From NCBI RefSeq assembly GCF_021390425.1, contig NZ_JAJUWY010000002.1, forward strand, positions 62,001 through 126,000: a stretch of 64,000 nt of DNA. Direction: 5' to 3'. Below the pieces are notes generated by a model, which saw only the letters and a program-made list of their open reading frames with translations, was not told the DNA's origin and did not search any database. Of this stretch, positions 16,503 through 57,758 are shown one piece after another. The first letter of the stretch is position 1. The number at the start of each line of letters is the position of its first letter. Source of the DNA: Lysobacter sp. GX 14042. Lineage in GTDB: Bacteria; Pseudomonadota; Gammaproteobacteria; Xanthomonadales; Xanthomonadaceae. The translations under genes and the position numbers were made by a program.

Positions 16503-16549
16503 TGGTGGGCGGTACAAGGTTCGAACTTGTGACCCCTACCATGTCAAGG
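16503..16549. repeat. att site A (left end): duplicate of tRNA-Val 3' end
   Basis: 47 bp identical to 20265-20311 and to 57684-57730, the 3' half of the tRNA-Val gene including CCA. This copy is followed by the tRNA terminator at 16462-16494, so it is probably the original chromosomal 3' end pushed left by two insertions. Confidence 0.95.
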
Positions 16550-16631
16550 CTGGGAAATAGGTAGCCAAGAGCACCCATGTGCATGCAACTCGCTGATTCA
16601 TATCACCAGAAGACCCCATGCACGCCACTAT

Positions 16632-16654
16632 GTTTGCCGTACTTCTGCCGTACT
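16632..16654. repeat. Arm-type site, left copy
   Basis: A 23-bp stretch containing two tandem tgccgtact units 11 nt apart; it recurs with one mismatch at 20208-20230. Placement just inside each att site of the small element suggests integrase arm or Xis binding sites. Confidence 0.6.
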
Positions 16655-16695
16655 CGATAGACTCCGCGCTTCCCAGAGTGCAGCGAGTTGGCAAC

Positions 16696-17856
16696 GTGGC
16701 AAAGATCGACCTGAGGACCGTCCGCAATCGCGACAAGCTGAAGCCCCGCCGGGAGCCGTACTGGCACACCCTGGCCACTGGACAAGCCATCGGGTTCCGA
16801 CCGTCCAAGTCCGGAGAGGGCGGGACGTGGATTGCCCGGTTCAACGACCCGGACAGCGGGAAGCGCCCGCTGCGGTCCCTCGGTGACTTCGGACACCTGC
16901 CACCGAGTGAGCGGTTCGGCGCTGCAGCAAAGGAAGCGATGGAGTGGTTCAAGCATCTGGACGCGGGCGGCTCCCATGAAGTCCTGACGGTACGGGATGC
17001 CTGCGAGCGCTACGCGGAACGTGGCCCGAAGGACGCTGCAGGGCGCTTTGCGCGGCACGTCTACGATGACCCCATCGCGTCGGTACTTCTGCACAAGCTG
17101 ACACCTCGCCACGTCCGCGTTTGGCGCGAGCGGTTGGAGGCCATGCCGGCACAGGTATCGCGCAGCAAGTCCGGACCCCGGACCACCCGCCCCCGCAGCA
17201 AGGCCACCATCAACCGGGATATGGTCGCCTTCCGCGCCGCACTGAACGAGGCTTTCAAGAACGGCGATGTTCTATCGGAGCATGCATGGCGCGAAGCGCT
17301 GAAGCCGTATGAGGTCACCAGCCGCCGTGACCTGTACCTGACGCGCGAACAACGGCGGGCGTTCCTCGCCGAACTTCCGGCAGACGCTCAGGCCTTCTGC
17401 CGTGCGCTGTGCCTGCTTCCCCTGAGGCCGGGAGCGCTTGCCGCTGCTCGCGTGGGTGACTTCGATGCCGGACGGGCCATCCTTACAGTTCGAAGCGACA
17501 AGGCGGGCGAGGGACGCCCGTTGGTGCTGCCGCCTGCATCAGCCGACCTGCTGCGGGAACAGATCAGGAACAAGCTGCCGACCGCCTTCATCTTCATGCG
17601 GGCTGACGGGAGTGTCTGGAACAAGGACGCGTGGAAGAAGCCCATCACCGCAGCCGCGCAGGCTGCTTCGCTCCCTCCCGGGACCACGGCCTATACCCTG
17701 CGCCACTCCGTGATTACCGACCTCGTCACCAGCGGCAGAACCGACCTGCTCACGGTGGCGAAGCTGGCCGGAACGTCCGTCCGAATGATCGAAAAGACCT
17801 ACGGGCACCTGCTGCAAGAACGGGCTACGGCAGCGTTGGCAACGCTCGCCGTCTGA
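16696..17856 (+). CDS. Tyrosine recombinase / integrase of the mini element
   Basis: 386 residues from a GTG at 16696. An ATG at 16618 is in frame but its codons cover the putative arm site, so the later start is favoured. Catalytic elements: LLPLRPGALAAARVGDF (Arg I), the LRH of TAYTLRHSVITD (Arg II with His/Ser), GTSV-type box, and Tyr in IEKTYGHLL. The N-terminal ~90 residues resemble an arm-binding domain (IGFRPS...WIARFND). It inserts the element at tRNA-Val. The class resembles integrases of Xanthomonadaceae islands and satellites. Confidence 0.9.
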   Translation: MAKIDLRTVRNRDKLKPRREPYWHTLATGQAIGFRPSKSGEGGTWIARFNDPDSGKRPLRSLGDFGHLPPSERFGAAAKEAMEWFKHLDAGGSHEVLTVRDACERYAERGPKDAAGRFARHVYDDPIASVLLHKLTPRHVRVWRERLEAMPAQVSRSKSGPRTTRPRSKATINRDMVAFRAALNEAFKNGDVLSEHAWREALKPYEVTSRRDLYLTREQRRAFLAELPADAQAFCRALCLLPLRPGALAAARVGDFDAGRAILTVRSDKAGEGRPLVLPPASADLLREQIRNKLPTAFIFMRADGSVWNKDAWKKPITAAAQAASLPPGTTAYTLRHSVITDLVTSGRTDLLTVAKLAGTSVRMIEKTYGHLLQERATAALATLAV

Positions 17857-17974
17857 TCCCGCAGTCACCTTTGCCCAGCTGGGGGTATCCGCCCGCCCCG
17901 CCTTCCCCGACTCTGACTGCGTGGCCTACCATCCCGACGTCTACAAGGGGGATGGCCAGCGGGCCAGGTGAATC

Positions 17975-18418
17975 ATGGGATTTTTTGGTGGAATCAAGAG
18001 CACGTTCAAGAAGAGCGAAGCGGCAGTAGTAATACAGAACCTTCTTGAACATCACGCGCGGATTGGCCTTCTACCCGTCCCCGCTGATCCTGCGAAGACA
18101 GCCAACGCACTCGTGCAGGCAGCGTGGGACGATATGCCCGACGTCTTCAGTGGGAAATTTGGTCAGCGTCCGCACAAGTTGGCAGTTGCGGCTACGGCAC
18201 TCGGGCTGTGCGTCATGGGCATACCGGCTACCCATCCGCACCGACCGACGCTGGTCCTTTGCCTAGGGACAGTCCTGTCCGAAGTCCAGAAAAACGGACG
18301 CCTGTATCCGCTGAACGGCATAGATGACCAGCTACTTGAGGCAGCCTATACCGCCTTCATGCTCGCCCAAGAACAGCCTACGGCAGACGACGAAGCCGCT
18401 GACCCGGCGCACGCCTGA
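17975..18418 (+). CDS. Hypothetical protein of the mini element
   Basis: 147 residues; ATG at 17975. N-terminus MGFFGGIKSTFKKSEA is amphipathic and basic, then helical sequence with LLEHHARIGLLP and KLAVAATALGLCVMG. The C-terminus is acidic. No membrane-spanning segment of full length. No known family recognised. It lies 118 nt after the integrase and is the largest unassigned protein of the element, so it is a natural candidate for any helper-interference or defence role, which is inference only. Confidence 0.6.
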   Translation: MGFFGGIKSTFKKSEAAVVIQNLLEHHARIGLLPVPADPAKTANALVQAAWDDMPDVFSGKFGQRPHKLAVAATALGLCVMGIPATHPHRPTLVLCLGTVLSEVQKNGRLYPLNGIDDQLLEAAYTAFMLAQEQPTADDEAADPAHA

Positions 18419-18584
18419 GCGCCACTCCGGCGCGGCCGACCCTCTACGATCCGAGACGTTCCGACCGGCCCACTATCGGTCACCAGCGTGGCCAGCAGCA
18501 AGGCCCATCCGTTGGCGTGACGCGGCCAGCAGGTGCCCCGAGAATGCCCCCGCCCAACGTCGGGCGGTATGGGAATCTGAGCAA

Positions 18585-18710
18585 GTGATCATCGAAGCTG
18601 GAAGCGTCCACCTTGAGCTGTCTACCGCATCGCGGTACCTGTACGTGAAGGGTGGACGCCGGGAGCTGTACTGGAATTGGCACACCCGGGAGTTCGTCTG
18701 GGAGAGGTAG
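18585..18710 (+). CDS. Possible small protein
   Basis: 41 residues from a GTG: IIEAGSVHLELSTASRYLYV followed by GGRRELYWNWHTREFVWER. The alternating pattern resembles a compact beta protein and has better amino-acid character than shadow frames. An in-frame ATG at 18324 would overlap the preceding gene and adds unconvincing sequence. No family recognised; weak evidence of coding. Confidence 0.35.
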   Translation: MIIEAGSVHLELSTASRYLYVKGGRRELYWNWHTREFVWER

Positions 18711-19518: not shown

Positions 19519-19926
19519 ATGAGCAAGACCCAGACCCTGCGCCCTGTGCGCTACTTCACCGACGCCGACGGCATACGCTGTGCCCTCGTTCCTGTCGCCA
19601 ACCTCAACGATTCCGCGATCATCTATGCGGATGACCTGACCCGCCTGGTAGCCGATGGCGTGTCCCTCAACTGGCAGCTGAACTCAAACGGCAGCGCCGA
19701 ACTCGCCCGCAGCTACGTCAAGGTGAGCCTGCCCGGCAAGGACGGTCGAGTGGTGGCCCGCCTCGTCTACGGCGCTCGCCCCAAGGAACAAGTCAGATAT
19801 CGCAATGGCAATCGTCTCGACCTACGCCGCCCGAATCTCACCACGGCTTCCGGTGGCAATGCCCACAAGGACTGCAGCGTCATTGCCTCGACGTGCGACG
19901 TTGCAGCCGAAGGGAGCAACGAATGA
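19519..19926 (+). CDS. HNH/AP2-like DNA-binding protein of the mini element
   Basis: 135 residues. The C-terminal part, VARLVYGARPKEQVRYRNGN followed by RLDLRRPNLTTASGGNA, is the pattern of the AP2-like DNA-binding piece of HNH homing nucleases (NGN-R-D-R-NL). The HNH zinc or catalytic histidines are not evident, so it may be a binding protein only. The start ATG follows a 405-nt hairpin-rich leader. It overlaps the AlpA gene by 4 nt. Confidence 0.65.
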   Translation: MSKTQTLRPVRYFTDADGIRCALVPVANLNDSAIIYADDLTRLVADGVSLNWQLNSNGSAELARSYVKVSLPGKDGRVVARLVYGARPKEQVRYRNGNRLDLRRPNLTTASGGNAHKDCSVIASTCDVAAEGSNE

Positions 19927-20147
19927 GCACCCCGCAGGTCGCCGCCATCCCCGGCATCGCCGACCCGATCCTGAGGAAGCGGCAGGTGCTGCAGGCCACG
20001 GGCCTGACCAGTTCCACCCTTGATCGACTGGAGCGCGGCGGCGACTTCCCTAGGAAGCTGCAGATCGCGCCCCGCGCCGTAGGCTGGCTGGCGTCCGAAG
20101 TCGACGCATGGATCCGCCGGAAGGCGGCTGAGGCACAGGCTGCGTAG
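19923..20147 (+). CDS. AlpA-family regulator / excisionase of the mini element
   Basis: 74 residues; ATG overlapping the previous TGA. It has the AlpA winged helix-turn-helix: ILRKRQVLQATGLTSSTLDR, then FPRKLQIAPRAVGWLASEVD and the final AWIRRK. AlpA proteins of P4-like satellites act as excisionase or transcription activators of the integrase. Location at the right end of the element, coupled to an HNH/AP2-like gene, fits a control of excision. Confidence 0.85.
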   Translation: MSTPQVAAIPGIADPILRKRQVLQATGLTSSTLDRLERGGDFPRKLQIAPRAVGWLASEVDAWIRRKAAEAQAA

Positions 20148-20207: not shown

Positions 20208-20230
20208 GTTTGCCGTACTTTTGCCGTACT
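20208..20230. repeat. Arm-type site, right copy
   Basis: Second copy of the 23-bp site at 16632-16654, one mismatch, same orientation, 33 nt before att site B. Confidence 0.6.
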
Positions 20231-20262
20231 CCCCAATGCCCAATGACCTAAATCATTGATTT

Positions 20263-20312
20263 ATTGGTGGGCGGTACAAGGTTCGAACTTGTGACCCCTA
20301 CCATGTCAAGGT
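20263..20312. repeat. att site B, junction of mini element and prophage
   Basis: Middle copy of the tRNA-Val 3' end. It is identical to site C over 50 bp (57682-57731) and to site A over 47 bp. The longer match to C makes B/C the attL/attR pair of the prophage, and A/B the pair of the mini element. Confidence 0.93.
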
Positions 20313-20393: not shown

Positions 20394-20409
20394 TGCGTTT
20401 GAGTTGCGT
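20394..20409. repeat. Prophage arm-type repeat, left copy
   Basis: tgcgtttgagttgcgt, identical to 57615-57630 just inside the other prophage end. Direct orientation and symmetric position suggest integrase arm sites. Confidence 0.55.
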
Positions 20410-20422
20410 GTTAGGAGGGAGC

Positions 20423-20962
20423 ATGGAGACGACAGCGCTGTACCGGCACTACGATGCAGATGGAACGTTGCTTTACGTGGGCATCGCGCTAAGCCCGATC
20501 GCCAGGCTGTGCGAGCACCGAGACGGCTCCGCCTGGTACGACCGAATCGCCACCGTGAAGATAGCGCGCTATCCCTCGCGCGAAGATGCCTTGGCTGCCG
20601 AGAGTGAGGCGATCAGGACGGAGCGGCCGCTGCACAACGTTGTGGGCAACGATGCGCCGATGATCCCTGCCAACGTACGCCCCCGCCCCTCCGCACACAA
20701 AACATCCCGCCTTAGCGCCGCTGGGGTCGCGCATGCAACTGCACCTGGCTATCACTGCGATGGCGCAGGGCTTTACCTGGCTGTGACCCCCGCCGGAACG
20801 AAGTCATGGATATTCCGGTTCCAGCGGAACAAGCGCCGCAGGGAAATGGGTCTTGGAGCGTATCCCGTAACATCACTGGCGCAAGCCCGAGAACTCGCCC
20901 ACCAGCAACGGCAGCTCCTTCGCGAAGGGCTTGACCCCATCGAGTATCGCGCCGCGAGCTGA
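20423..20962 (+). CDS. GIY-YIG nuclease domain fused to an integrase arm-binding (DUF4102) domain
   Basis: 179 residues; the ATG has taggaggga upstream. Residues 5-72 are a GIY-YIG fold: ALYRHYDADGTLLYVGIA, Arg at IARL (28) and Glu60/62 in LAAESEAI, all catalytic positions kept. Residues 107-175 (YHCDGAGLYLAVTPAGTKSW, then MGLGAYPVTSLAQAREL) are the N-terminal arm-binding domain of P4-type integrases; the catalytic domain of the integrase is absent. The linker is Pro/Ser/Arg-rich. It may have arisen by insertion into or recombination with an older integrase at this tRNA. Intact frame and good ribosome site suggest it is expressed. Confidence 0.8.
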   Translation: METTALYRHYDADGTLLYVGIALSPIARLCEHRDGSAWYDRIATVKIARYPSREDALAAESEAIRTERPLHNVVGNDAPMIPANVRPRPSAHKTSRLSAAGVAHATAPGYHCDGAGLYLAVTPAGTKSWIFRFQRNKRRREMGLGAYPVTSLAQARELAHQQRQLLREGLDPIEYRAAS

Positions 20963-21139
20963 TGCAGGCGTGGGCGAAGTACCTGGAGGGATAGCCCCCG
21001 CCGCTGTCCCGAAGGACGGCATTGCTTCCCGGCAGGCCCGTCTGGCGTCAGGCCGTCGCCCGGTCCGCGCTGCACGGCGGGGATTGCAGGATGGCGCGGT
21101 GAGTGGCCGGGGTCAGTCAGGCAACACCCCGGCGCGGCG

Positions 21140-21340
21140 TCAGCGATTTCCGAGACGCGCCCCGAACCACCGCTCCACGTACCGCTTCCCCTGCGCGACC
21201 GACCCGCACCGACCGCCCGTCTCGGTGCTCCCCCAGCGGATCACCACTTCGCCGGGCTTCACCACCGCCACGGTCTTCGTGTTGTAGCGCAGGTAGCTCA
21301 CGCCGTCTATTTCCAGCCAGTTGAAAGCAGCGCCGAGCAT
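21140..21340 (-). CDS. Small hypothetical phage protein
   Basis: 66 residues (AFNWLEIDGVSYLRYNTKTV, then KPGEVVIRWGSTETGG and RYVERWFGARLGNR). Composition is that of a real small beta protein, unlike shadows. It lies between two plus-strand cargo genes, in the opposite direction. No family recognised. Confidence 0.55.
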   Translation of the reverse strand: MLGAAFNWLEIDGVSYLRYNTKTVAVVKPGEVVIRWGSTETGGRCGSVAQGKRYVERWFGARLGNR

Positions 21341-21404
21341 GGGCGCAGGATACGCCCGGCCCCAGGTGTCAGGTAGGCTGCGGGCAGGCCATTGGATCAG
21401 CGAG

Positions 21405-21863
21405 ATGACCACAGCAACCCTGCCAATCAGGTTCGTAGACAGAGCCGGTCGACCGTCCGATCCCTTCGGCGAAGTGGCGGACGCCATCCCGGTCGTGGAT
21501 ATTGTCCTGGCGCCACCGAAAGGCAGCGACAGCACCGCTCGCGTGGACTGTGTCGCGCTCGTTGATACAGGCGCTGACTACTGCTCCTCCTTCGCCAGCG
21601 TGCTTGACGCTGTGTCGGCACCCTCCACTAGGTCCGTAGGCCAACACACCGCTTGGGGCAGCCATACCGCTGACGTGCGTGACGCCACCATTCTCGCCCC
21701 TGCGTCCGGGCTCGTTTTCCACACCGATGTGTCCGTGCGGGAGAGCGGGTGTTCGGCTTACTCGTTGATCCTGGGCCGATGCTTGCTGCAGTTCGGCGTG
21801 CTGGTGATGGACTACCCCAACCGGCGGTTTGAGTGGCAGTTCACCGGACCTCGAACACCCTAG
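21405..21863 (+). CDS. Retropepsin-like aspartic protease
   Basis: 152 residues. [10 protein letters not shown] (D54-T-G-A-D58) is the active-site motif of retroviral-type aspartic proteases, preceded by a beta strand and followed by a helix-like [19 protein letters not shown] at 121-130 corresponds to the second conserved element (ILGRD-x-L), with Cys in place of Asp. One D-T-G site per chain implies a homodimer. It ends overlapping the tail-fibre stop by 4 nt on the other strand. Such genes are rare in phages; processing of a virion protein is one possible role. Confidence 0.72.
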
Positions 21864-23845
21864 CCGTCCAGCGCCGCCAGACGCCGCTCCAGCTCGTCCT
21901 GCCGGTGTGCCAGGCCCCGCAGCACGAAGTGCGCCAGCTCGGTCGGGCGCAGGCTGTAGCGGTCGCCGGCTGGGCGGTATTCCTGCGTGACCTCGCTGCC
22001 GGCCTCGCGGATCAGGTTGCCCTCGTCGTCGTACTCGTCGGGCCACTCGTCGCGAATCTCCGGCTGCTCGTCCCACTGGTCGAAGCACACGAAGCCGTAG
22101 CGGAACGGATCAAGCCCGTGCGCCTCCATCGCCGCGATCACCGCCTGCACCGTGGGGCTGGCGTGCAGCCTAGCGTCCTCGCCCTTTTCCTCGATCGCGT
22201 GGAGCCACTGGAAGATGCAGGGAAGCCGGGCAATGTCAGAGGCCGCGGCAAGCTCGGATTCCGTCAGGTCGCGCGGCTCGGTCTTTTCGCGGGCGTCGGA
22301 GGTGTTGATAGCGCCGTTGACGGCGCGCACTTCGGTGTAGCGAAGGTTTGTTCGCCCGAGAGCTACTGCATTGTCGACCCCCGGACTCACCTCATTGGAA
22401 GCAAAGAACACCCACGAACCAGAAGATAGGACAGAAGTGCCCCCCACCCCGAAGGAGCTTCCAGACCGCAAACCGAAGAACAGCTCCTCTGTGGAGCCTG
22501 CGAAACGAATAGCGCCATTAGCGTTGTTGTTGGTCCGCCGCACCGTCATCACAACGGGGTCGGTGGATTCAACTGAAATTGGTCCCGAGAACAGCCCCCC
22601 GGAGGAAGGGACAGCCCCCACGTCCGCGGCCCCGAGCACGACCGTGCCCTGCTTTCCGTTGACGGACTGGACGAGGTTGGTGGCGGGGTCTCCCTGCGGG
22701 CCCTGTGGACCTTCGGGCCCGGCGGGGCCTTCCGGCCCTTGCGGACCGGGATCGCCCTGCGGCCCGGGCGCGCCGTCAGCGCCAGGTGGACCCTGCGGCC
22801 CCGGATCGCCCTGATCGCCCTTCGGTCCTGCCGGGCCTTGATCGCCGGGATCCCCCTTGTCGCCCTTCGGCCCGGCTGGACCCTGCGGGCCGCGCTCACC
22901 CGTGTCACCCTTCGGACCCTGCGGACCTTGGCTGCCCTGCGGACCTTGTGGCCCCTCCGGACCACGGAACGCCACGCCGCCACCATCGGGCGGGAACGCA
23001 GAGCCGTCCCAGATGTAGAGCTTGCCGTCTGCTTGCACGAGGTAGCCCGCGCCCGCGTCGCCCGAACCGAGCCCCGTGGGAAGGTCGGCATAGGTCGGCA
23101 CCGAGCCCGCGATTTCGATGCCCGCGCCATCCTCGCCGGCCGGGCCTTCCGGCCCCTGCGGGCCTTCGGGCCCCTCCGGTCCTTGTGGACCTTCCGGGCC
23201 GGGCGTCAGCTCGATCGTTTCGATGGCCTCCGCCACGGCCCGCCCACTCGGCGCGGTGTCCGTGGCGTCCGGGTCGATCGCGTCGGCGACAGCCGCCGCC
23301 CGCGCCCGCTCCGGCGTGAAGTACCGATTCCCCTCCCCTTCCGGGAGGTCGTCGGTCGTCGCCTCGCTGGTGCCGGACACGCGGCCGTACTGGTCGCGCT
23401 CGAGCTTCTGGAGGGTGCCGCCGCCGGTGTCGGGGAGCGGGGACAGGCCGAAGGTGACCCGCCCGGTGGCGTCGACGGACAGGGCCACGCCCTCGCCTTC
23501 CAGCAGGCCGTCCGCGAGCGCGAACCAGCCCTTCTGGCCCTCCGCGGTGGTGCCGTACACGAATGTCGACCCCGGCTCGTCCACGTCGCCCTGCAAGCTG
23601 ACGAAGGCGTTTCCGTTGGAGAGCTGGCCCACCACGCGCACCGACTGCGACCCCAGCAGCAGGCCGATGTCGCCGCGGCCCTCTGCAATGTCCTCGCGCA
23701 GCTTGTCGATCTGGCGCTGCAGCTCGGTGGTGTCGCCGCCCTTGGCGCGCACCTCGCGCTCCAGGTCCTGCAGGAACCGGTAGAACGGCTCCGACGTGCG
23801 ACCGCCGGCCTCGGCGATCGGGATGGACTGGCGGGGCAGCATCAT
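21860..23845 (-). CDS. Tail fibre with collagen-like repeats and S74 chaperone domain
   Basis: 661 residues. N-terminal ~1-150 is mixed with a coiled-coil stretch (LERE...LRED); collagen-type Gly-X-Y repeats occupy about 216-241 and 295-387, separated by a small globular part. From SDAREK at about 516 the sequence is the Peptidase_S74 intramolecular chaperone, which trimerises the fibre and then usually cuts itself off at this Ser-Asp. The last ~30 residues form the long helix expected of the domain. It should bind the host surface. The start overlaps the head-binding gene's stop. Confidence 0.88.
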
Positions 23846-27921: not shown

Positions 27922-29378
27922 CAGCGGTACATCTCCAGAAGGGCGTCAATGTCCTGCGCGGGCTGCTGCGGGGTCTGCGGCGAAGGCTGGCGCCCGGCGC
28001 CGTAGTCCTGGTCGTAGGCGCGCGCCACGCGCTCCCACGATCCGCGCAGCTCGCGATGGAAGTCCTGCAGGTTGCGCCGCAGCTGCTCCGGCGACTGGCT
28101 GTTCTCGATGTTGCGGACCACCGACTGCAGGAAGGCGAGCTCGCGCTCCGTCACGTTGCCTAGGGCGCCGCCGGTGGGGCTGGCGGCTCGCATGGCGTTC
28201 AGCTCATCGAAGCCGGCGATGGCCTGCAGCGTGCCCAGGTCCCGCCGAAGGTCGGCCGCTGGCGTGCCGGGAATGGCGTCGGCGATGCTGCCGATGGTGC
28301 CGGCCGTCCAGTTGTTGATCCGCGGCATGATGGAGTTCACCAGCGCGTCGACCCGGCCGATTCGCGCCGTGGCCTGGTCAAGCGACAGCCGCGCCTTCGA
28401 CTCGCCGGCGGACTTCTCCAGGTCGCGCTTGACCTCGCCCACCTGCCGGGTACGGTCGACCTCGCCGGCAGTCTCGATCGCCTGCTGCGCGGGAAGGAAC
28501 TCCAGCTGCGCCTGCTGCCGGGCGCGCTCCGTCTCCGCAGCCACCTGCGCCTCACTCGGACGGGCCATCGTGCGCGGCGGGGTCGGCAGGCCGGGCGTGA
28601 TGGTCGGCTCCCCGCCGACGCGCGCGCCCCGCTGTGAAAGGAAGGTGTCGACCTGATCCGCCGGCATTCCGGCAGCGATCAGATCGTTGGCCAATGCGAT
28701 GTCGGCCTCCATGCCTGCCCGGGTCGGGGCCGTAGAAGCAACCGGCGGTGCAGGCCCGCCCGCCTGCCCGCCCACGGTCTGCACGTTCCCCAGCTTGTCG
28801 ACCAGTTGCGGGTCCATGCCCGGGTGGTCTCGGAACCACATTTGCCGGTCCGCGGCGATTCCGGTGTTCACCACCTGTCCGTCCCGCATCACGGTGTAGA
28901 CGTTGCCGTCCTGGCCCACGAACCGGGACTGCACCGTGGTGCCAGCGGCGTTCGGGTCCGCCTGTGCGAGCACCTGGTGCAGCATCGGCAGAATGTCCTC
29001 GCCCACCTGATCGGGAAGCTGCTTATCGGGCGCCAACTGCTGGAAGGCCGGCTTCACCGCCCGGTAGGCGCCCTGGATCGCCGCCTGATCGCCGCTCTTG
29101 AAGGCGTTCATCAGGTAGCGCGAGGCATTGATCACCTGTGCCCGGGATCGGTCATCTTGGCCTTGGAACTGCGCCTGCTGCGCCTGCGCGCCCTCCGGGC
29201 TGATCGCGGCCATCTGCCCCAAAAGGGCATTCTGGCCAGCGGCCGGCGTGCTGTACGCCTGCGACGCCAGCTGCGCGAATTGGTTGCGGCGCCGCGTATC
29301 CAGCGCGCTCTGCGCCATCGCGTTGCCGGCGTTGAAGCCCGCCCCGAAGCCGCCGAGTAGTGCGTTGGGAACTGCCAT
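27921..29378 (-). CDS. DNA ejection protein, P22 gp20-like
   Basis: 485 residues, 1-nt overlap with both neighbours. N-terminus FGAGFNAGNAMAQSALDTRR is a typical glycine/alanine start of such proteins; a long helical C-terminal half has PEQLRRNLQDFHRELRGSWE and the final helix. It lies in the middle of the three-gene ejection set, where P22 has gp20. Position and composition are the evidence. Confidence 0.7.
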   Translation of the reverse strand: MAVPNALLGGFGAGFNAGNAMAQSALDTRRRNQFAQLASQAYSTPAAGQNALLGQMAAISPEGAQAQQAQFQGQDDRSRAQVINASRYLMNAFKSGDQAAIQGAYRAVKPAFQQLAPDKQLPDQVGEDILPMLHQVLAQADPNAAGTTVQSRFVGQDGNVYTVMRDGQVVNTGIAADRQMWFRDHPGMDPQLVDKLGNVQTVGGQAGGPAPPVASTAPTRAGMEADIALANDLIAAGMPADQVDTFLSQRGARVGGEPTITPGLPTPPRTMARPSEAQVAAETERARQQAQLEFLPAQQAIETAGEVDRTRQVGEVKRDLEKSAGESKARLSLDQATARIGRVDALVNSIMPRINNWTAGTIGSIADAIPGTPAADLRRDLGTLQAIAGFDELNAMRAASPTGGALGNVTERELAFLQSVVRNIENSQSPEQLRRNLQDFHRELRGSWERVARAYDQDYGAGRQPSPQTPQQPAQDIDALLEMYR

Positions 29379-30124
29379 CAGCCGCCTCCGAAGTTCCAGT
29401 TGTAGCCGGGCGAGGCCCAGGCGTTGCCGCCCGAGACGGCGAAGGGGTTGTTCGACGCCTGCAGGCCGGCGAAGCCGTTCTGCGCCGCCTGCGTCTGGTT
29501 GCGCGTGCTGTTCCAGCCGCCCCAGTTGTTCAGCAGGTTGGATCCGAAGCCGGCGACCAGGCCGCCCAGCTGGCTGTTGGCGTCACCGCGGGCCTGGTAG
29601 GACGACGCCCGCGCGTTGCCGATGTTCCCGTAGGCGTTGCCGATGTTGCTGGCGGCGTTGGCGCCGAACTGCCCGAGGCTGGTGGCGGTGGTCTGCCCCA
29701 CGTTGGCCAGTCCGGCCAGTCGGTTGTAGAAGTTGCCGTAGTTCTGGCTGGCCAGCCCCTGCGCGTAGCCCAGCACGTCCGCGCTGTGCCCACCGGTGTT
29801 CAGGCTGCCGCGGGCCGCGGCGCTACGGTCCAGCCCCTGCAGGCCCTGGTCCAGCGCGAACTGGTAGTCGGGCGACTGCGTGAAGCTCGAGAAGTCCCCG
29901 GCGTTCAGGGCCTGCATCTGCCCCAGCGCGTTCTGGCCGGCCTGCATCCACGGCTGCATGTCCTGCCGCGTCAGGTCGAGCTGGCGCTGCTGCTCCGCGA
30001 TAGCGAGCTGCTGGCCTTCTGCTGCGGAGTTCGCGGCGCCCTGCGCGGCCTTCTTCTGCTGATTGGCCCCGTAGGCGCCGCCGACCAAGCTCACGGCTGC
30101 GCCGGCCACGATTCCCCAGCTCAT
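29378..30124 (-). CDS. DNA ejection protein, P22 gp7-like
   Basis: 248 residues. MSWGIVAGAAVSLVGGAYGA is a small hydrophobic start, then AQGAANSAAEGQQLAIAEQQ and a Gln/Ala-rich middle; the last third is Asn/Gly-rich (SNIGNAYGNIGNARASS). This build is common to small internal virion proteins of podoviruses. First of the three ejection genes. Confidence 0.72.
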   Translation of the reverse strand: MSWGIVAGAAVSLVGGAYGANQQKKAAQGAANSAAEGQQLAIAEQQRQLDLTRQDMQPWMQAGQNALGQMQALNAGDFSSFTQSPDYQFALDQGLQGLDRSAAARGSLNTGGHSADVLGYAQGLASQNYGNFYNRLAGLANVGQTTATSLGQFGANAASNIGNAYGNIGNARASSYQARGDANSQLGGLVAGFGSNLLNNWGGWNSTRNQTQAAQNGFAGLQASNNPFAVSGGNAWASPGYNWNFGGG

Positions 30125-30591
30125 CGGCTGCTCTCCTCAAGTTGGTGGGTCTGCCCCAGCTCGCGGCGCGGCTCGGGAACGATGAACTCGGCTTCCAGCT
30201 TTGCCAGGTCGGTTTCAAAGCTCGGATGCACGTTCAGGAACACGCAGTCGGTCAGCGCCAGCGCCACCTTCTTCGTGCGCGGCTCGCTGGTGAAGATGGC
30301 CGGGGCACGCACGATCTTCTGCCCCTGCGGCGTGGTGACCGACATCTCACCCTGCGCCAGCACGTTCAGCGTGGAATGCCGGTGGATCTTCCCGACCACC
30401 ACGACGCCGGCGGGGATGCGCATCTCGCGACCGTAGATCCCGTGCGCGAAGTGGTGGTGCGTAATGGCGTCGACGGGAACCTCGCCGCCGCTCGCCCGGA
30501 TAGCGTCCTCCAGGGCGTGCAGCTGCTCGCGCGTGGGCATGGGCGCCCGTGGCGTCACGTCGAAGGACGCCGAGAACATCAGGACCATCAC
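30121..30591 (-). CDS. Cupin-like virion or assembly protein (P22 gp14 position)
   Basis: 156 residues; GTG at 30591 overlaps the gp10 stop. HHHFAHGIYGREMRIPAGVV and VVGKIHRHSTLNVLAQGEMS form the beta strands and His-rich loop of a cupin fold. In P22, the gene between gp10/gp26 and gp7 is gp14, a head-assembly protein; here a cupin-like protein is in that place. Whether it is structural or enzymatic is unclear. Confidence 0.6.
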   Translation of the reverse strand: MMVLMFSASFDVTPRAPMPTREQLHALEDAIRASGGEVPVDAITHHHFAHGIYGREMRIPAGVVVVGKIHRHSTLNVLAQGEMSVTTPQGQKIVRAPAIFTSEPRTKKVALALTDCVFLNVHPSFETDLAKLEAEFIVPEPRRELGQTHQLEESSR

Positions 30592-31979: not shown

Positions 31980-32380
31980 CAGTCCCAGGAATCCGTGTAG
32001 ATGTTGTAGCGCCCCTCGCGCGGCGACCGCGGCGTCACCTGCAGCGGGGAGGCGGTCAGCACGTCACGGCGCAGGGCCGCGTGGCCGTCCGCTGCGTGCT
32101 GCACCACGTCTGGCTCCAGCGCCGCGCCGTACTCGGGGCGCAGCTTGAGCGCGAGGTTGTAGACGATGGCTTCGTGCGCCTCGTCGGGCGCCGGAACCTG
32201 GTCGTCGGGGCCTTCCACGTCCGACCAGCCCAGCGCGAGGCCGTTGGCCTCCCAGCGCCGCATCATGCCGTTCAGGGCGACGATGCCGTCCGCCATCTCC
32301 TGGGCGGACGGGGCGCTGTGCGCGTCGACCACCCGCAGGATCCGCAGGGCGCGGCTCACGATGTCAGCTACTCGGGCCAT
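31979..32380 (-). CDS. Tail accessory factor, P22 gp4-like
   Basis: 133 residues. VADIVSRALRILRVVDAHSA then MADGIVALNGMMRRWEANGL and AIVYNLALKLRPEYG are the helices of gp4-type head-completion proteins, which form the ring below the portal. Position before gp10 fits. P22 gp4 also has muramidase activity; no catalytic residue is evident here. Confidence 0.8.
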   Translation of the reverse strand: MARVADIVSRALRILRVVDAHSAPSAQEMADGIVALNGMMRRWEANGLALGWSDVEGPDDQVPAPDEAHEAIVYNLALKLRPEYGAALEPDVVQHAADGHAALRRDVLTASPLQVTPRSPREGRYNIYTDSWD

Positions 32381-43280: not shown

Positions 43281-43597
43281 GCCGCCTCCAGCTCTTCAAT
43301 GATCTTCGCCACGGCGGAGGGATTGATGCTTGCGTTCCAGCGCAGCTGCTTCCGCACACTCCGCCGGTGGACCCCCAGAACCGGAGCCAGGGCTGTGACC
43401 TGCTCGTCCGTCAGCGCCTTGATCCGCTCATTGACCGCCCGAATGCGCTCCTGCCGCGCCTGCCACTTCTTGTGCTGCTCGCGCGCCAGGGATTTCGCCT
43501 CCCGGGCCTGCTGCGCCTTGTAGCGGTCGATTTCAGCGTCGATGTTCCCGCGCTTGCGCAGCGGAACATTCAAGATTCCATGATCAAAGCTGCCCAT
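43277..43597 (-). CDS. Hypothetical helical phage protein
   Basis: 106 residues, charged. [20 protein letters not shown] is a long basic helix, followed by [20 protein letters not shown], a possible helix-turn-helix, and a final helix. DNA-binding plausible. Overlaps both neighbours. Confidence 0.6.
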
Positions 43598-43955
43598 CCG
43601 ATCCTCCCGTGATTCGCACCACCACCTCGCCGCCGGTCCGCACCTCGTCGCTCACGAACGGGTGCGACACGAACCGGGCGTCGTCTATCCCCAGCGCCTC
43701 GGCCAGCCCGTCTCGCATGGGCTTGAACCGGGCCAGAAGGTTGTCGTCGTCGTACTTGCGCCGCGCGGGCCGGTGGAAGGTGATCCACAGGTGCAGCCGC
43801 CCCTCGGGCAGCCCCTCCCCGCTCCACCTCTCCGCCATCGCCAGCAGGCGCGCCGCGGCTCGCGCGCTCTTGGCAGCTTCCGCCCGCTTCGACCAGTGGA
43901 CACGAGCGTTCGGGGACAGGGCCTTGTCCGGCCACGGCAGGGTCAGCGGCCTCAC
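43584..43955 (-). CDS. rusA: RusA-family Holliday-junction resolvase
   Basis: 123 residues. The [20 protein letters not shown] segment (Asp69-71) is the RusA active-site motif with the following lysine and helix; final [19 protein letters not shown] is the usual last strand. It resolves recombination or replication junctions before packaging. Commonly found late in lambdoid early operons. Confidence 0.88.
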
Positions 43956-45813: not shown

Positions 45814-46343
45814 CGGTCCGGCCCCGCTGCCAGGTCCTTGCCGCACAGCTCGCGGCGGATCGCCTCGACATGGGCCTTCGCTACTTCCGGGTCTGCCGGC
45901 TTCACCTCGCGCTTCTCCTGCTCAACCGCGCCGGCAACCTCGGGCAGCTCGCCACCCCGCATCACGTGCTCCCGGGCCAGCTCGTAGGCTTCGCGCAGCA
46001 ACCGGTCGGCCTGGTCGGCGCTCACGCTGCGGTAGCGGTGCCCATCGAGGAACTGCCACACCAGCCGGGTGAAGCCGCCCTGCTTGCCGGCGTCCAGCCG
46101 CACCGCGGCCATCGGCGGGATCCCGAGGCACATGGACCGGAACTCGGGCAGCGTCGGCGGCCAAGGCTCGCTGCTGGCGAGGCACGCCTGCAGGCCGTGA
46201 GCAAGCTGCGCGCCGGTCAGGCCCGCCAACCCGGAGGCCCAGGTGTCGCCGGCCATGCCGGCGGGATCGTCGCCGTAGCTGCTGGTCCACCGGTGGCCGT
46301 AGATCGAGGCCATGCGGCCCCACAGGGTTTCAGTTTGCGACAC
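45810..46343 (-). CDS. Lambda P-like replication protein
   Basis: 177 residues from a GTG at 46343 overlapping the previous stop by 14 nt. An ATG at 46448 has a good ribosome site but would overlap the upstream gene by 119 nt and adds unconvincing sequence; uncertain. WGRMASIYGHRWTSSYGDDP then GLAGLTGAQLAHGLQACLAS are typical of phage P-type loaders in Xanthomonadaceae. It presumably loads the host helicase. Confidence 0.65.
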   Translation of the reverse strand: MSQTETLWGRMASIYGHRWTSSYGDDPAGMAGDTWASGLAGLTGAQLAHGLQACLASSEPWPPTLPEFRSMCLGIPPMAAVRLDAGKQGGFTRLVWQFLDGHRYRSVSADQADRLLREAYELAREHVMRGGELPEVAGAVEQEKREVKPADPEVAKAHVEAIRRELCGKDLAAGPDR

Positions 46344-47181
46344 GGGAAGCCGTGCCTTCGATGACGGTGAACTCGCCCCGCTCGCGACGGCTGCGCTCGA
46401 TGTTGGCCTGCACGCGGTCGGCGGCAGACAGTCGGCTATGGCCTGCATGGGTTGCTCCTGCGGTGATGGGTGCGGCGCCCTCGGCATGGCGGCTGCGCGC
46501 GGTGGTGATGGCCCAGGCAAACGGGCGGGTCTTCTTGGCCTCGATGGCTTCGGCGGCAGTCGCCGCCAGCGCTTCGGGCGTGACGCCCTCCTCCAGCGCA
46601 GCCAGCAGGTCGGGGTGGCTCGGGTTGGTCCCACCGCATCCCGCTTTCCGCATCAGCAGGCACGCTCGGCCGGCCGCGGTCGGCTCGCGCGCGCCAGCGA
46701 GCGAAGCGAGCTCTTGGGGTCTGGAGTCTGGAGCCTGGTGAGCTTTCGGTTGGGTTTCGTTTTCGGAACCCGAGCAAAAGGGTCGGGTTTCTTCCTGCAA
46801 ACCCGATGGAAAGGGTTGGGTTTTTTCCGTTTTCCTTCCGCCGCTGGGTGGCTTCGCTTTCGGGGGGCGCCCGCCCTTCTTCCCGTTCTCACGCGCGGAC
46901 TCGATCTTCGCCACGAAACGCGCGATCTCCTCGTCTGCTCGCTTGTTGTGCCAGCCGTCGTCCTCCAGGGTGAAGAACTCGGCCAGCACCGCGTCGACCG
47001 CCTCCAGTTCGTCGGGCGTGCGGGCGCCGGCGAGGCGCGCGACCTGCTTCACGTCTGCGGGAAGTGGGCATTCCTGGAGGTAGTAGCGCCGGAGCAGCCG
47101 GGAATAGACGGCGTCCTCCAGCAGCGTCAGGTGCGAAGTGGCAGCGGCGTAGTCGCCGATGTGGTGCTCGAAGTAGTTCAC
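46330..47181 (-). CDS. YdaU/DUF1376-type replication protein
   Basis: 283 residues; GTG overlapping upstream TGA. NYFEHHIGDYAAATSHLTLL and YSRLLRRYYLQECPLP are the DUF1376 winged-helix start, a replisome-initiator-like domain. The middle is low-complexity Lys/Pro/Ser; the C-terminal ~100 are helical. Origin might be inside or near this gene (O-like proteins bind their own gene). Confidence 0.8.
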   Translation of the reverse strand: MNYFEHHIGDYAAATSHLTLLEDAVYSRLLRRYYLQECPLPADVKQVARLAGARTPDELEAVDAVLAEFFTLEDDGWHNKRADEEIARFVAKIESARENGKKGGRPPKAKPPSGGRKTEKTQPFPSGLQEETRPFCSGSENETQPKAHQAPDSRPQELASLAGAREPTAAGRACLLMRKAGCGGTNPSHPDLLAALEEGVTPEALAATAAEAIEAKKTRPFAWAITTARSRHAEGAAPITAGATHAGHSRLSAADRVQANIERSRRERGEFTVIEGTASRVAN

Positions 47182-48760: not shown

Positions 48761-48773
48761 TAGGCAATGCTTA
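48761..48773. promoter_or_regulatory. Operator O3, over the repressor start
   Basis: taggcaatgctta, the weakest match. It covers the first codons of the repressor gene, allowing negative autoregulation at high repressor level. Confidence 0.75.
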
Positions 48774-49435
48774 TGGGGCCAGCCCTTGGTGAGGCGGTAG
48801 ACGAAGCGATCCGCTTGAAGGGCGTATCGAAGGCGGAGGTTGCCCGCCACTTCAAGATCAAGGGCCCGTCTGTGTACGACTGGATCAAGCACGGAAGGAT
48901 TAGCAAGCACCACCTACCCGAGCTGGTTAACTACTTCTCTGACGTAGTCGGTCCGGAGCACTGGGGGCTTCCGAAGTCTGGCGTGCTGGGGGGCGGGCCG
49001 GATCCCGGTGATGCCGACTGGTCGGACGTTCTCGGTTACGCGCAAGACGTGGCGCTGGGCGACGGCTCGCTCCCCGATGAGTACGCCGAGACGCACAAGC
49101 TCAAGTTCCGGCGCGACAGCCTCCAGCGCAAGGGTCTGCGCCCTGGCGCTCTGCAGGTCTACTACGGTTCGGGCGACTCAATGGAGCCGCGGATCCACGA
49201 TGGGGACGCGATCCTGTTCGACACCAGCGACACCCGGGTGGTGGACAACCGGATCTACGTCGTGCGCTACGAAGGGCACGTCTACGCCAAGCGGCTCCAG
49301 GTGCATGGCGACCTTGTGTTCATCGAAAGCGACAACGACACAGACCCGAAGTGGCGCCGGCCGGTGCTCGTACGCGAGGGCGACGATTTCGAGGTGATCG
49401 GCCGCGTGCGCTGGATCGGGAGCTGGGAAGATTGA
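48767..49435 (+). CDS. CI-type repressor with S24 (LexA-like) domain
   Basis: 222 residues from ATG at 48767 (a second ATG is two codons on). Residues 1-60 are a helix-turn-helix (SKAEVARHFKIKGPSVYDWI). The S24 peptidase fold has Ser138 in GSGDSMEPRIHDGD and Lys175 in HVYAKRLQ. No Ala-Gly or Cys-Gly bond is present in the linker before Ser138, where LexA-type self-cleavage usually occurs. A promoter with -10 near 48755-48760 would start RNA at or next to the ATG, a leaderless mRNA as for lambda cI from PRM. Confidence 0.9.
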   Translation: MLMGPALGEAVDEAIRLKGVSKAEVARHFKIKGPSVYDWIKHGRISKHHLPELVNYFSDVVGPEHWGLPKSGVLGGGPDPGDADWSDVLGYAQDVALGDGSLPDEYAETHKLKFRRDSLQRKGLRPGALQVYYGSGDSMEPRIHDGDAILFDTSDTRVVDNRIYVVRYEGHVYAKRLQVHGDLVFIESDNDTDPKWRRPVLVREGDDFEVIGRVRWIGSWED

Positions 49436-51755: not shown

Positions 51756-51959
51756 ATGACCACTGAAATCGAAGACCTGGACGGCATGCTCGCGATGATG
51801 GAGCGCTACGGCGGCTCCTTCGTCCGCTATCTGGCCTGCGCGTGGCGCTGCGCCGATCCGGTGAACAGCGAAAAGCTGGCCGCCACCTTCCCGGAGTATG
51901 TCGAGAACTACTCCGTTATGGCGAAGGGCGCCCGTGAGCGCGGGGAGCTGGTGTCGTGA
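51756..51959 (+). CDS. Small early phage protein
   Basis: 67 residues; ctggagcaaccc upstream. EIEDLDGMLAMMERYGGSFV and WRCADPVNSEKLAATFPEYV. Helical, no family recognised; coupled with the exonuclease gene. Confidence 0.6.
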   Translation: MTTEIEDLDGMLAMMERYGGSFVRYLACAWRCADPVNSEKLAATFPEYVENYSVMAKGARERGELVS

Positions 51960-52885
51960 GCGCGCAGCCTGCATGGGAAGCCGACGCGATGGAGGCGGCA
52001 CAGTCCCTCGCCAGCTGCACCATCACCACCGACGTGCCGGCCGAGGTCTACCACCAGCGCCGCCTGGACGTGGCGAGCGCCAGCGGCTTGAAGCTGATGC
52101 TGCGCTCCCCGGCGCACTTCAAGCACTGGTGCGAGGATCCCGAGGCCGACCGCGAATCCCCGGCCCTGACCTTCGGGCGCGCCTTCCACATGGCGACCCT
52201 GGAGCCGGACGTTTTCGAGCGCACCTACACGGTCGTGCCGGCGAACGCGCCGCGCTACCCGACCGCGGCGCAGTGGAACGCCAAGAAGCCGAGCGCCGAC
52301 AGCATCGCCGCGATGGATTGGTGGCGCGCATGGGAGGCCGAGAACGCCGGCCGCGTGAAGCTGTCCAGCGACGACTACGACCGCGCCCGGTACATGGCCG
52401 AAAGCGTGCGGGCGCACCCCGTAGCCGCCGGGCTGCTGGTAGGGGGTGATCGGGAGGTCACGTTCAACTGGACCGACGAGGAAACCGGCCTGGACTGCAA
52501 GGCGCGCGCCGACCTGTACCTGGGCGGCGAGTACCTGATGGACCTGAAAACCTGCCGGGACGCGAGCCACGAAGGATTCGCGCGGGCGGTGACCAGCTAC
52601 ATGTACGCGCTGCAGCAGGCCCACTATTTATCCGGCATCCGCACCTGCGGCGACCGCATCCGCTACTTCCTGTTCCTCGCGGTCGAGTCGGAAGCCCCCT
52701 ATGTCTGCCAGCCCTACGCGCTGGACGTGCAGGCCGAGCAGCTCGGCGAGGCGCAGCGCCGCAAGGCCATGCGCCGGCAGGCCGAGTGCGTCCGCACCGG
52801 CAAGTGGCCGGGCTACAGCGAGAACCTGGAAGAACTGACCCTGCCCGCCTGGGCGCACTACGGAATTGAGGACGAAGCCGCATGA
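51956..52885 (+). CDS. RecE-like exonuclease (PD-(D/E)XK, DUF3799)
   Basis: 309 residues; GTG start. VASASGLKLMLRSPAHFKHW and TFGRAFHMATLEP at the N-terminus and LDCKARADLYLGGEYLMDLK followed by TC are RecE C-terminal nuclease features: Asp in ARADL and the D-L-K. Then ALQQAHYLSGIR with Gln/Tyr motif. It resects dsDNA ends, working with Bet encoded next. Confidence 0.87.
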   Translation: MSAQPAWEADAMEAAQSLASCTITTDVPAEVYHQRRLDVASASGLKLMLRSPAHFKHWCEDPEADRESPALTFGRAFHMATLEPDVFERTYTVVPANAPRYPTAAQWNAKKPSADSIAAMDWWRAWEAENAGRVKLSSDDYDRARYMAESVRAHPVAAGLLVGGDREVTFNWTDEETGLDCKARADLYLGGEYLMDLKTCRDASHEGFARAVTSYMYALQQAHYLSGIRTCGDRIRYFLFLAVESEAPYVCQPYALDVQAEQLGEAQRRKAMRRQAECVRTGKWPGYSENLEELTLPAWAHYGIEDEAA

Positions 52886-53691
52886 GCACCGCCATCGCAA
52901 CCCAGCCCGAGCGCCGCTCGCTGGTCCAGAAGTTCGCCGACAAGTTCAGCATCGAGCCGACCCGCCTGCTGGCGACCCTCAAGGCCACCGCCTTCAAGCA
53001 GCGCGGCGATATGCAGGTGTCGAACGAGCAGATGGCTGCCCTGCTGGTGGTGGCTGACCAGTACGGCCTCAACCCCTTCACGAAGGAAATCTACGCCTTC
53101 GAGGACAAGGGCAGCATCGTGCCGGTGGTGTCGGTGGACGGCTGGAGCCGGATCATCAACAGCCACCCGGAGCTGGACGGGATCGAGTTCGACTACAGCG
53201 AGTCGATCGTAACCCCCACCGGCGGCAAGCCCTGCCCAGAGTGGTGCGAAATCCGCATCTACCGCAAGGACCGCGCCCGCCCCGTGGTGGTGCGCGAGTA
53301 CCTGGACGAAGTGTACCGGGAGCCGTTCAAGGCCCGAGGCAAGGACTACACGATCAGCGGGCCGTGGCAGACCCACACAAAGCGGTTCCTGCGCCACAAG
53401 ACGCTGATCCAGGGCGCGCGCATCGCCTTCGGCTTCTCCGGCATCTACGACCAGGACGAGGGCGAGCGGATCATCGAGGCGGAAACCGTGCGGGTGCAGC
53501 GCGTCGAGCGCGAGGACCTGGCCGAGTTGCAGGAGCGGCTGCAGCAGCGGGCGGCGCTGGATCACCAGGCGGAGCCGGCGCAGGAGGCGCAACCGGAGCC
53601 GGAAACGGTTGACGAGTCCCGTCCCGCAGCCGATCCCGTGCCCGAAGTCGATCCGGAAACCGGCGAGGTGATCCCCCCGGAGGTGCAGTGA
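52882..53691 (+). CDS. bet: Bet-type single-strand annealing recombinase
   Basis: 269 residues. QMAALLVVADQYGLNPFTKE then IYAFEDKGSIVPVVSVDGWS is the signature of phage lambda Bet family. C-terminus is acidic with Pro/Glu, like others. Forms the annealing ring that pairs the exonuclease-made strands. Confidence 0.9.
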   Translation: MSTAIATQPERRSLVQKFADKFSIEPTRLLATLKATAFKQRGDMQVSNEQMAALLVVADQYGLNPFTKEIYAFEDKGSIVPVVSVDGWSRIINSHPELDGIEFDYSESIVTPTGGKPCPEWCEIRIYRKDRARPVVVREYLDEVYREPFKARGKDYTISGPWQTHTKRFLRHKTLIQGARIAFGFSGIYDQDEGERIIEAETVRVQRVEREDLAELQERLQQRAALDHQAEPAQEAQPEPETVDESRPAADPVPEVDPETGEVIPPEVQ

Positions 53692-56406: not shown

Positions 56407-56732
56407 GCGCAGCGGAGAAGATCCCGACCCTTTACACCGAGGCCGAGGCAGCCCGCAGGCTGGGGGTCAGCAAGGCCACCCTGACGCGCGAGCGCATCGC
56501 CGGCAGGATCGGTGCAATCCGAATGGGTGAGCGGATCATCCGCTACACCGACGAAATCTTGAGCGAGTACCTACGGACATGCAGGAGCGGGTCGGACAAA
56601 TCGGGGACTACTGGCTTTCCAAGCGGCCAGGGTCCGACAAGTGGTGCCGAACCTGGTACGACCCCGTCGCTCGACAGACGAAGCGCGCATCAATTGGCAC
56701 AAGCGACCTTCAAGCGGCGCAGCTCAAGCTAG
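56403..56732 (+). CDS. Excisionase (MerR/HTH_17-like)
   Basis: 109 residues; GTG overlaps previous TGA. TEAEAARRLGVSKATLTRER and IGAIRMGERIIRYTDEILSE make the excisionase helix-turn-helix with wing. The C-terminal tail (~45 residues, Ser/Gly-rich) overlaps the integrase gene by 154 nt. Directs excision at induction. Confidence 0.85.
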   Translation: MSAAEKIPTLYTEAEAARRLGVSKATLTRERIAGRIGAIRMGERIIRYTDEILSEYLRTCRSGSDKSGTTGFPSGQGPTSGAEPGTTPSLDRRSAHQLAQATFKRRSSS

Positions 56733-57658
56733 CCGAGTGGGTCGTCGCCCACGCCACGATGGGCCGCCAGGCGGCGCGGGACGTGGCGCTGGGGCAGGTG
56801 CTGGTGCGCTACTGGCACCGCAAGGGCAAGGATCTGGCGTCCGCCGAAGTGACGAAGATCGCGCTGGGCTACTGGTCGGAGTTCTTCGGGGAGTCCACGG
56901 TCACGGAGGTGACGGCGGCACGGCAGCGGGAGTTCATCGCGTGGCTTGCCGGCCAGCGGACCCCGCCCCTGTCCCCCGGCTACATCAAGCGCATCCTCGG
57001 GATCGGCAAGGCGGCGCTGAACGACGCCTACAAGGAAGGCGAGCTGGACACCGTGCCGTACATCCTGCCGGGAGAGGACGGGGAGCCGAACGACCTGGTG
57101 CTCACGCTGGAGCAGTCTGTGGCCGTCTGGAGCGCTGCCGAGCTTCCCCATGAGCGGATGATGCTGGCGCTGCTGTACGGGACGCTGGCGCGGCCAGAGG
57201 CGGCCTTGGCGCTGCGTAGGGAGTTCGTGGACTTCAACCGGCGACTGCTGACGCAGAACCCGCCCGGCAGGAAGCAGACCCGCAAGTACCGGCCCGTGGT
57301 GCCGGTGTGCGACTTCCTGCTCCCGTGGCTGGCCGATGCGGAGCCGGGGCCGCTGGTGACGTGGCGCGGGAAGCCCATCGCCAGCTTCAAGACGGCGTGG
57401 CGGAAGATGCGCGACCGTGCCGGGCTGCCGAAGGGGGCGGTCCCCAAGACGATCCGGCACACGATGGCTACCGAGCTGCGGGCCGCTGGCGTGCCGGAGG
57501 CGGAAATCCAGGGATTCCTGGGGCACCGGGCCTACGGCGGCAAGACCGAGGTGTACGCGAAGTACCGCCCCGACTACCTCGGACACGCCGTGCAGGCGAT
57601 TGACGCCTACATGCTGCGTTTGAGTTGCGTTCTAGAAACGACGAAGGCCACCCGGTGA
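56579..57658 (+). CDS. int: Prophage tyrosine integrase
   Basis: 359 residues. N-terminal MQERVGQIGDYWLSKRPGSD; core-binding domain from about 60 to 145; catalytic GTLARPEAALALRREFVDF (Arg I), KTIRHTMATEL (Arg II; the usual His is Lys), FLGHRAYGG, and Tyr in EVYAKYRP. It inserts the prophage at tRNA-Val. It shares little visible identity with the mini-element integrase, though both use the same tRNA. Confidence 0.92.
   Translation: MQERVGQIGDYWLSKRPGSDKWCRTWYDPVARQTKRASIGTSDLQAAQLKLAEWVVAHATMGRQAARDVALGQVLVRYWHRKGKDLASAEVTKIALGYWSEFFGESTVTEVTAARQREFIAWLAGQRTPPLSPGYIKRILGIGKAALNDAYKEGELDTVPYILPGEDGEPNDLVLTLEQSVAVWSAAELPHERMMLALLYGTLARPEAALALRREFVDFNRRLLTQNPPGRKQTRKYRPVVPVCDFLLPWLADAEPGPLVTWRGKPIASFKTAWRKMRDRAGLPKGAVPKTIRHTMATELRAAGVPEAEIQGFLGHRAYGGKTEVYAKYRPDYLGHAVQAIDAYMLRLSCVLETTKATR
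57615..57630. repeat. Prophage arm-type repeat, right copy
   Basis: tgcgtttgagttgcgt, identical to 20394-20409; here within the end of int, 54 nt from att site C. Confidence 0.55.
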
Positions 57659-57675
57659 AGGTGGCCTAAGTCGTT
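57637..57675. terminator. Hairpin at the end of int, facing tRNA-Val
   Basis: Arms ggccacc/ggtggcc extended by aacgac/gtcgtt. It closes int and, on the minus strand, follows the tRNA by a few nt, so may substitute for the tRNA's lost terminator. Confidence 0.65.
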
Positions 57676-57681
57676 GTTATA

Positions 57682-57731
57682 ATTGGTGGGCGGTACAAGG
57701 TTCGAACTTGTGACCCCTACCATGTCAAGGT
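57682..57731. repeat. att site C (attR), within tRNA-Val
   Basis: 50 bp identical to 20263-20312. It is the 3' half of the intact tRNA gene, so integration rebuilt a functional tRNA. Confidence 0.94.
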
Positions 57732-57758
57732 AGTGCTCTACCGCTGAGCTAACCGCCC
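57684..57758 (-). tRNA. tRNA-Val (GAC)
   Basis: 75 nt including CCA. Acceptor gggcggt/accgccc, D-arm gctcagcggtagagc, anticodon loop TTGACAT between ctacc and ggtag, T-arm with gttcgaa. Integration site of both mobile elements. Confidence 0.97.

Follow-up and report, generated by a model that had tools for sequence, protein, structure and literature searches.

How did two integrative elements come to stand in tandem at a single tRNA-Val gene, and could each leave the chromosome without the other? The question is raised by a 64,000-nucleotide stretch of Lysobacter sp. GX 14042 (contig NZ_JAJUWY010000002.1), hereafter the window, in which a 3.76-kb mini element is followed by a 37.4-kb prophage adjoining a tRNA-Val(GAC) gene. 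An earlier note had placed elements of ~3.8 kb and ~37.4 kb between three copies of the tRNA-Val 3' end, and had suggested that one might exploit the excision of the other or that all 41 kb might move together. Our analysis indicates that two independently acquired integrative elements have very probably accreted at this one tRNA-Val(GAC) gene, each integrase using a common core of 46-47 nt together with doubled arm repeats of its own.

Core copies, empty site and arm repeats

The 46-nt core was present in three exact copies, all on the plus strand, at 16504-16549 (A), 20266-20311 (B) and 57685-57730 (C) of the window (mean over 100 shuffles 0.00). A search of the strain's whole genome (2.80 Mb, 24 contigs) allowing up to three mismatches returned only those same three places. 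The copies span the 3' end of tRNA-Val from the CCA to the anticodon loop, and their start-to-start spacings of 3762 nt (A-B) and 37419 nt (B-C) bore out the coordinates of the earlier note. Its match lengths were confirmed by alignment: B and C were identical over 50 of 50 nt, and A and B shared an exact 47-nt block (16503-16549 at A), with A at 94% against the same 50-nt reference.

The distal attachment (att) copy A (16503-16549, plus strand) holds 47 nt of the tRNA-Val 3' end and borders the host flank on its left, copy B (20263-20312, plus strand) lies in the middle, and copy C (57682-57731) is contained in the complete tRNA-Val(GAC) gene (57684-57758, minus strand). ARAGORN reported this gene as the single complete tRNA-Val(gac), with which Rfam concurred, and called no tRNA gene at A or at B. 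The earlier note had allowed that A might be the end of a second tRNA gene. A genome of the same genus (G003) carries a single core copy, an empty site, in which the left flank is contiguous with the tRNA and right flank; the left flank through A (16179-16549) matched it at 74% and the tRNA with the right flank (57684-57827) at 96%. Since the flanks are contiguous there around one core copy, and no tRNA was called at A, we rejected a second tRNA gene as the origin of A. The comparison with genomes lacking an element, which the note had called for, thus yielded this empty site as well as the single-element relatives described below.

A tyrosine integrase gene lies beside each outer copy. Int1 (16678-17856, plus strand; PF00589 1.8e-07, phrog_1 2.7e-36) is beside A; its start codon is uncertain, and the longest open reading frame (ORF), from 16618, would take in arm repeats. 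Int2 (56579-57658, plus strand; PF00589 9.4e-10, phrog_1 6.2e-36) is beside C. Flank-to-flank comparison within each element brought out the arm-type repeats. Those of Int1, TTTGCCGTACT doubled at 11 bp, lie right of A (16633-16654, plus strand) and left of B (20209-20230, plus strand). Those of Int2, TGCGTTTGAGT/TGCGTKYTAG and also with an 11-bp period, lie right of B (20394-20414, plus strand; there TGCGTTTGAGT/TGCGTGTTAG) and left of C (57615-57635, plus strand), where they overlap the end of int2. Each arm pattern, at up to three mismatches, matched twice in the window, at its two named places only (shuffle mean 0.00).

The best 20-nt arm agreement was 19 for A-B and 18 for B-C, compared with 13 for A-C and 13 for the two sides of B itself. 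In the random control only 2 of 396 flank pairs reached at least 17 of 20, and 13 was the commonest value. With Int1 arms on its left and Int2 arms on its right, B is a hybrid att site. Tandem accretion calls for at least three direct copies of an att core bounding adjacent elements and for a chimeric middle site, and both were found here.

The 11-bp period extended to relatives. Of 28 core-like sites next to Int1 relatives, 21 had a 9-of-9 repeat at this period, versus 23 of 3000 random windows, and 20 of those 21 repeats sit 83-94 nt from the core. The survey drew on 40 sources, of which 13 had no core at up to 10 substitutions and contributed no row.

The host-lineage variant ACAAGGTTCGAACTTGT is found in all three cores (16504-57730) and in G003, and the other members of the genus that were checked have ACAGGGTTCGAACCTGT. 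The agreement of the element cores with the local tRNA variant requires either gene conversion or a local origin.

The two element types in related genomes

We counted core copies across 395 genomes of the family and tallied the two-copy genomes by hand. Three copies were present in two genomes (G000 and G211) and two copies in 40, of which 15 had them more than 1 kb apart on one contig and 8 on different contigs. The pair test covered 19 element pairs, made up of the 15 two-copy genomes and two pairs each in G000 and G211; the flank right of the distal copy and the flank left of the proximal copy agreed at 17 or more of 20 nt in 15 of them. In the other 17 two-copy genomes (e.g. genus g29, G390 and G071) the copies were about 150-175 nt apart, which we read as a probable duplication of tRNA-Val.

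Both element types also occurred singly. Int1-type elements bounded by two core copies, with no third copy present, were found in G210 (5.1 kb), G261 (12.6 kb), G174 (10.5 kb), G137, G220 and G010, and Int2-type prophages stood alone in G191 and G203. As each type is known from relatives in other genera where the other is missing, we take them to be two separately acquired elements. Int1 relatives (E<=1e-30) were present in 22 of 297 sampled family genomes including the strain itself (21 of the 296 others). Int2 relatives were present in 6 of 297, again including it, and in the other five the integrase adjoins tRNA-Val(GAC); the prophage of G191, 37.8 kb long and alone at the tRNA-Val site, is related and carries homologues of the prophage genes. 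A tree built from 29 integrases placed Int1-like and Int2-like proteins in separate clades, and arm class tracked clade. The earlier note had claimed two different integrases for one site, and they are indeed distantly related, lie where it placed them and have the tRNA-Val target in common.

The nearest relative of Int1 (72% identity) is in Pseudoxanthomonas helianthi (G174), of the same family as the strain. The P. helianthi element, 10.5 kb long, ends at tRNA-Val(GAC), with int at the distal end, alpA (68%) at the tRNA end and a relative of the HNH-like protein described below (43% over 100 aa). Its interior holds a resolvase-type gene and a gene for a 1084-aa protein related to an internal virion protein of phages (phrog_342, 8e-108), neither of which is in the mini element. 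Among ten proteins searched in this element and in G210, the phrog_342 relative (L026, 16565-19819) was the sole virion gene. The 5.1-kb element of G210 has a RepB-type primase gene.

A second stack was found in G211, of another genus, where a 16.6-kb Int1-type element precedes one of 74.6 kb that has an Int2-like protein (37%) adjoining the tRNA. The middle core of this stack is likewise hybrid, with TTTTCCGTAC arms to its left and CGGGGTCAG arms to its right. In all, five repeat classes were found beside this core (TTTNCCRTACT, TGCGTNYNAG, GGGGTCAS, TTGCAGGA and CGATGNCAG), each doubled at 11 bp; the class names used here are labels coined in this analysis. In G304 (L193) the arms at the distal copy are TGCGTGYCAG and those next to the tRNA, at a distance of 5.6 kb, are of GGGGTCAC type; the interval contains no core even when up to 13 substitutions are allowed. 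Judged by these arms, G304 resembles a stack that lost its middle and was left as a fused remnant. A 3.9-kb tRNA-Val element in G282 (L132, 3133-7072) has doubled, matching CGATGCCAG arms at both ends; its called ORFs include no integrase, and the G029-type integrase had no match in that genome. G137 has class-III-like repeats left of its distal copy. We did not count it as a stack of reversed order, as no second core (up to 13 substitutions) was found in a 69-kb part of its contig, of which 50 kb lie to the left.

The mini element contains Int1, an HNH-like protein, an AlpA-type regulator and two or three small ORFs that belong to no known family. The HNH-like protein (135 aa; 19519-19926, plus strand) scored 20.2 bits against HNH_3, under the Pfam cut-off of 24.8, and its reading frame overlaps that of alpA (19923-20147, plus strand; PF05930 6.9e-16, phrog_2790 3.5e-11) by 4 bases. 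A 147-aa ORF (17975-18418, plus strand) had no family match and was not picked by the gene caller, and a 41-aa ORF (18585-18710, plus strand) has the same residues in its match in the P. helianthi element. No relative of the HNH-like protein was found in 118 other family genomes at E<=1e-5 (G174 not necessarily among them), and none was confirmed in IMG/VR, in which Int1 had two distant loci (38% and 26%). The DNA of the mini element had no relatives among plasmids, and no conjugation or relaxase gene was recognised in it. Defence cargo was considered and rejected, as a PADLOC search at 0.01 gave no match to any of its five ORFs.

Predicted excision and alternative readings

Drawings of stacked elements usually show repeats placed around integrase genes. 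In this stack the arm repeats tell which integrase suits which pair of ends, so that the excision of each element becomes predictable at a single hybrid site. In several relatives the distal copy departs from the tRNA copy at core position 45 or 46 and nowhere else, so strand exchange probably takes place left of these, around the anticodon loop. An element would then supply the 3' half of the tRNA. Copy B would be usable by both integrases, each acting from its own side through its arms. Int1 with AlpA would recombine A and B, excising the mini element and leaving the prophage with one core at each end, and Int2 would recombine B and C, excising the prophage and leaving the mini element directly beside the tRNA. 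Either single excision would leave the other element and a whole tRNA. Recombination of A with C would join a right-hand Int1 arm with a left-hand Int2 arm and, because these arms do not match, should be a poor substrate for both integrases.

Several points weigh against two independent acquisitions with private arms. Four of the 19 element pairs agreed poorly (G203, G340 and G367 at 14 of 20, G304 at 11), 7 of the 28 core-like sites scored below 9 of 9, and these 28 sites are related and therefore not independent trials. By our 11-bp statistic the Int2 arms of the window reached only 7 of 9. The integrase tree carries no support values, and its rows for G137, G340 and G304 are truncated frames to be ignored. 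AlpA is a candidate excisionase by its family name, and the activity of both elements is deduced from their sequences. A published streptococcal tandem, with integrases less than 30% identical, is described in a review as excising both singly and whole (PMC5704250).

The mini element may instead be a relic that arose by deletion from a larger Int1-type island, lost cargo and is now stranded and immobile. The P. helianthi element, with genes between HNH and AlpA that are absent here, is consistent with such a loss, as is the element of G282, which has intact-looking ends at the same tRNA despite its missing integrase. However, int1 is an open frame with the conserved residues of its family, the arms at the two ends of the mini element agree as closely as noted above, and the layout around the HNH/alpA overlap is tight. 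We regard an immobile relic as possible but doubtful.

The whole stack could also be one composite mobile unit, in which an integrase recombines A with C and both elements travel jointly. The identical 46-nt cores of A and C would allow this, and the same streptococcal tandem, of an integrative and mobilizable element (IME) and an integrative and conjugative element (ICE), is said in the review to excise both as the IME by itself and as the entire composite (PMC5704250). However, the arms of A and C belong to different integrases and agree at the commonest random value, the outer pair of the G211 stack likewise agrees at only 12 of 20, and the element types occur singly in other genera. A composite unit is thus improbable. 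The idea that the 41 kb move together is accordingly disfavoured as an integrase-driven event, judged by the arms, with a small chance left to it because the review describes a streptococcal tandem doing so.

Equally improbable, in our estimate, is that the mini element is a satellite induced or packaged by the neighbouring prophage. Small size and the combination of integrase and AlpA recall P4-like elements and phage-inducible chromosomal islands (PICIs), and the P. helianthi relative carries the phrog_342 homologue. In contrast, the mini element and the prophage had no DNA in common at E 0.1, Int1-type elements occur at tRNA-Val where this prophage is missing, and a search of 50,697 phage records found nothing matching int1. 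Among the mini-element ORFs there was no packaging or capsid gene and no primase or other replication-gene family; no helper-interference or packaging gene was recognised, with two ORFs matchless and unrecognised genes therefore possible. The suggestion that one element exploits the excision of the other found no support: the mini element has its own integrase, an AlpA candidate and arms at both ends, and no detectable DNA in common with the prophage.

A misjoining of contigs as the source of the tRNA-end copies, conceivable in a 24-contig draft, is hardly credible, as arms, integrase positions and element ends fit exactly, single relatives of each element have the same ends and the host flanks are contiguous in G003.

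Published tandems and the prophage

Phages 21 and e14, at one bacterial attachment site (attB), are reportedly the subject of a relevant study. Tandem accretion, a common attB used with different arms, and doubled arm motifs have all been published, and this locus is an unusually readable example of them. The review PMC5704250 describes how ICEs, IMEs and cis-mobilizable elements (CIMEs) accrete in tandem at a single att site, with a chimeric att in the middle, and gives examples from Streptococcus. The present stack resembles those tandems in its distantly related integrases, its common target gene end, its chimeric middle att and its small element beside a larger one. Unlike them, it has a P22-like prophage as the large partner, no conjugation or relaxase gene was recognised in its mini element, and it is known from sequence alone. 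Tandem integration in Dichelobacter is mentioned in PMC2593044 and arm-site pairs at a tRNA-Lys core are given in PMC10865867.

PMC10111431 describes PICI tandems at fis or tRNA-Ile2 and helper-embedded PICIs (HE-PICIs) whose element attachment site (attP) has a doubled motif, printed with a period of 12 nt. These and our elements have in common direct motifs that are doubled and stand at fixed distances to either side of a core, and AlpA lies beside the integrase in some PICIs as well. However, the HE-PICI motif is one sequence, found only in HE-PICIs, whereas here the period is 11 bp and several sequences occur at one core, and the replication and late genes reported for PICIs are missing from the mini element. 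Cluster K mycobacteriophages have attP sites with 11-bp arm-repeat pairs, and Pixie and Tweety use one attB with different arms (PMC3203893). The likeness lies in the pairs of 11-bp repeats and in different arms at one target; that comparison is between phages, whereas here two elements are adjacent in one chromosome with a common hybrid site. Within the literature covered, which was accessible in part and left most subscription journals outside, we found no description of this locus or of several arm classes using a single tRNA-Val core.

More tentatively, tRNA-Val(GAC) may be a frequently used docking site in the family, at which at least five unrelated arm classes use one core. Private arms would then serve as an address by which elements stack but leave singly; loss through A x C would be prevented, and middle-deleted stacks (G304) and integrase-less elements (G282) would be stranded. 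If private arms generally keep elements at a common tRNA independent, arm class, read from ~100 nt of flank, would predict coexistence, and also the stability of stacks and which integrase-less elements an incoming relative could rescue.

The prophage interior (20313-57681) was annotated with PHROGs as that of a P22-like podovirus. Its genes are those of a tail fibre (21860-23845), ejection protein (29378-30124), head closure (30588-31979), adaptor (31979-32380), coat (33006-34196), scaffold (34224-35078), portal (35114-37117), large terminase (37117-38523), small terminase (40266-40730), spanin (40723-41193), RusA (43584-43955), a primosomal protein (46330-47181), a CI-like protein (48767-49435), an exonuclease (51956-52885) and a Bet-like protein (52882-53691). 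It thus has the P22-type portal, scaffold, coat and tail/ejection genes together with the integrase and repressor of a temperate podovirus, and its portal, scaffold, coat, tail-closure and ejection genes stand in order as in P22-like podoviruses. Unlike recorded members, its portal had a best match of 39% identity among the 50,697 phage records, and the DNA of 33000-57680 had no near match.

Just inside the left prophage end, starting 9 nt past the Int2 arm repeats, lies a gene for a 179-aa protein (20423-20962, plus strand) with an integrase arm-binding domain (Arm-DNA-bind_3 5.7e-21) and a GIY-YIG part (8.3e-4, under the Pfam cut-off; phrog_16880 endonuclease 4.7e-22). No phage record covers 80% of its length. 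We rejected a decayed integrase as its origin, as four full-length integrases searched against 20401-22000 gave no strong match past the arm domain, the next best being E 0.007 on the opposite strand. Among the matches listed, only its own was full-span, and that in G068 covers 21-174 with two stops. The arm half resembles the N-termini of full-length integrases (50% in G145).

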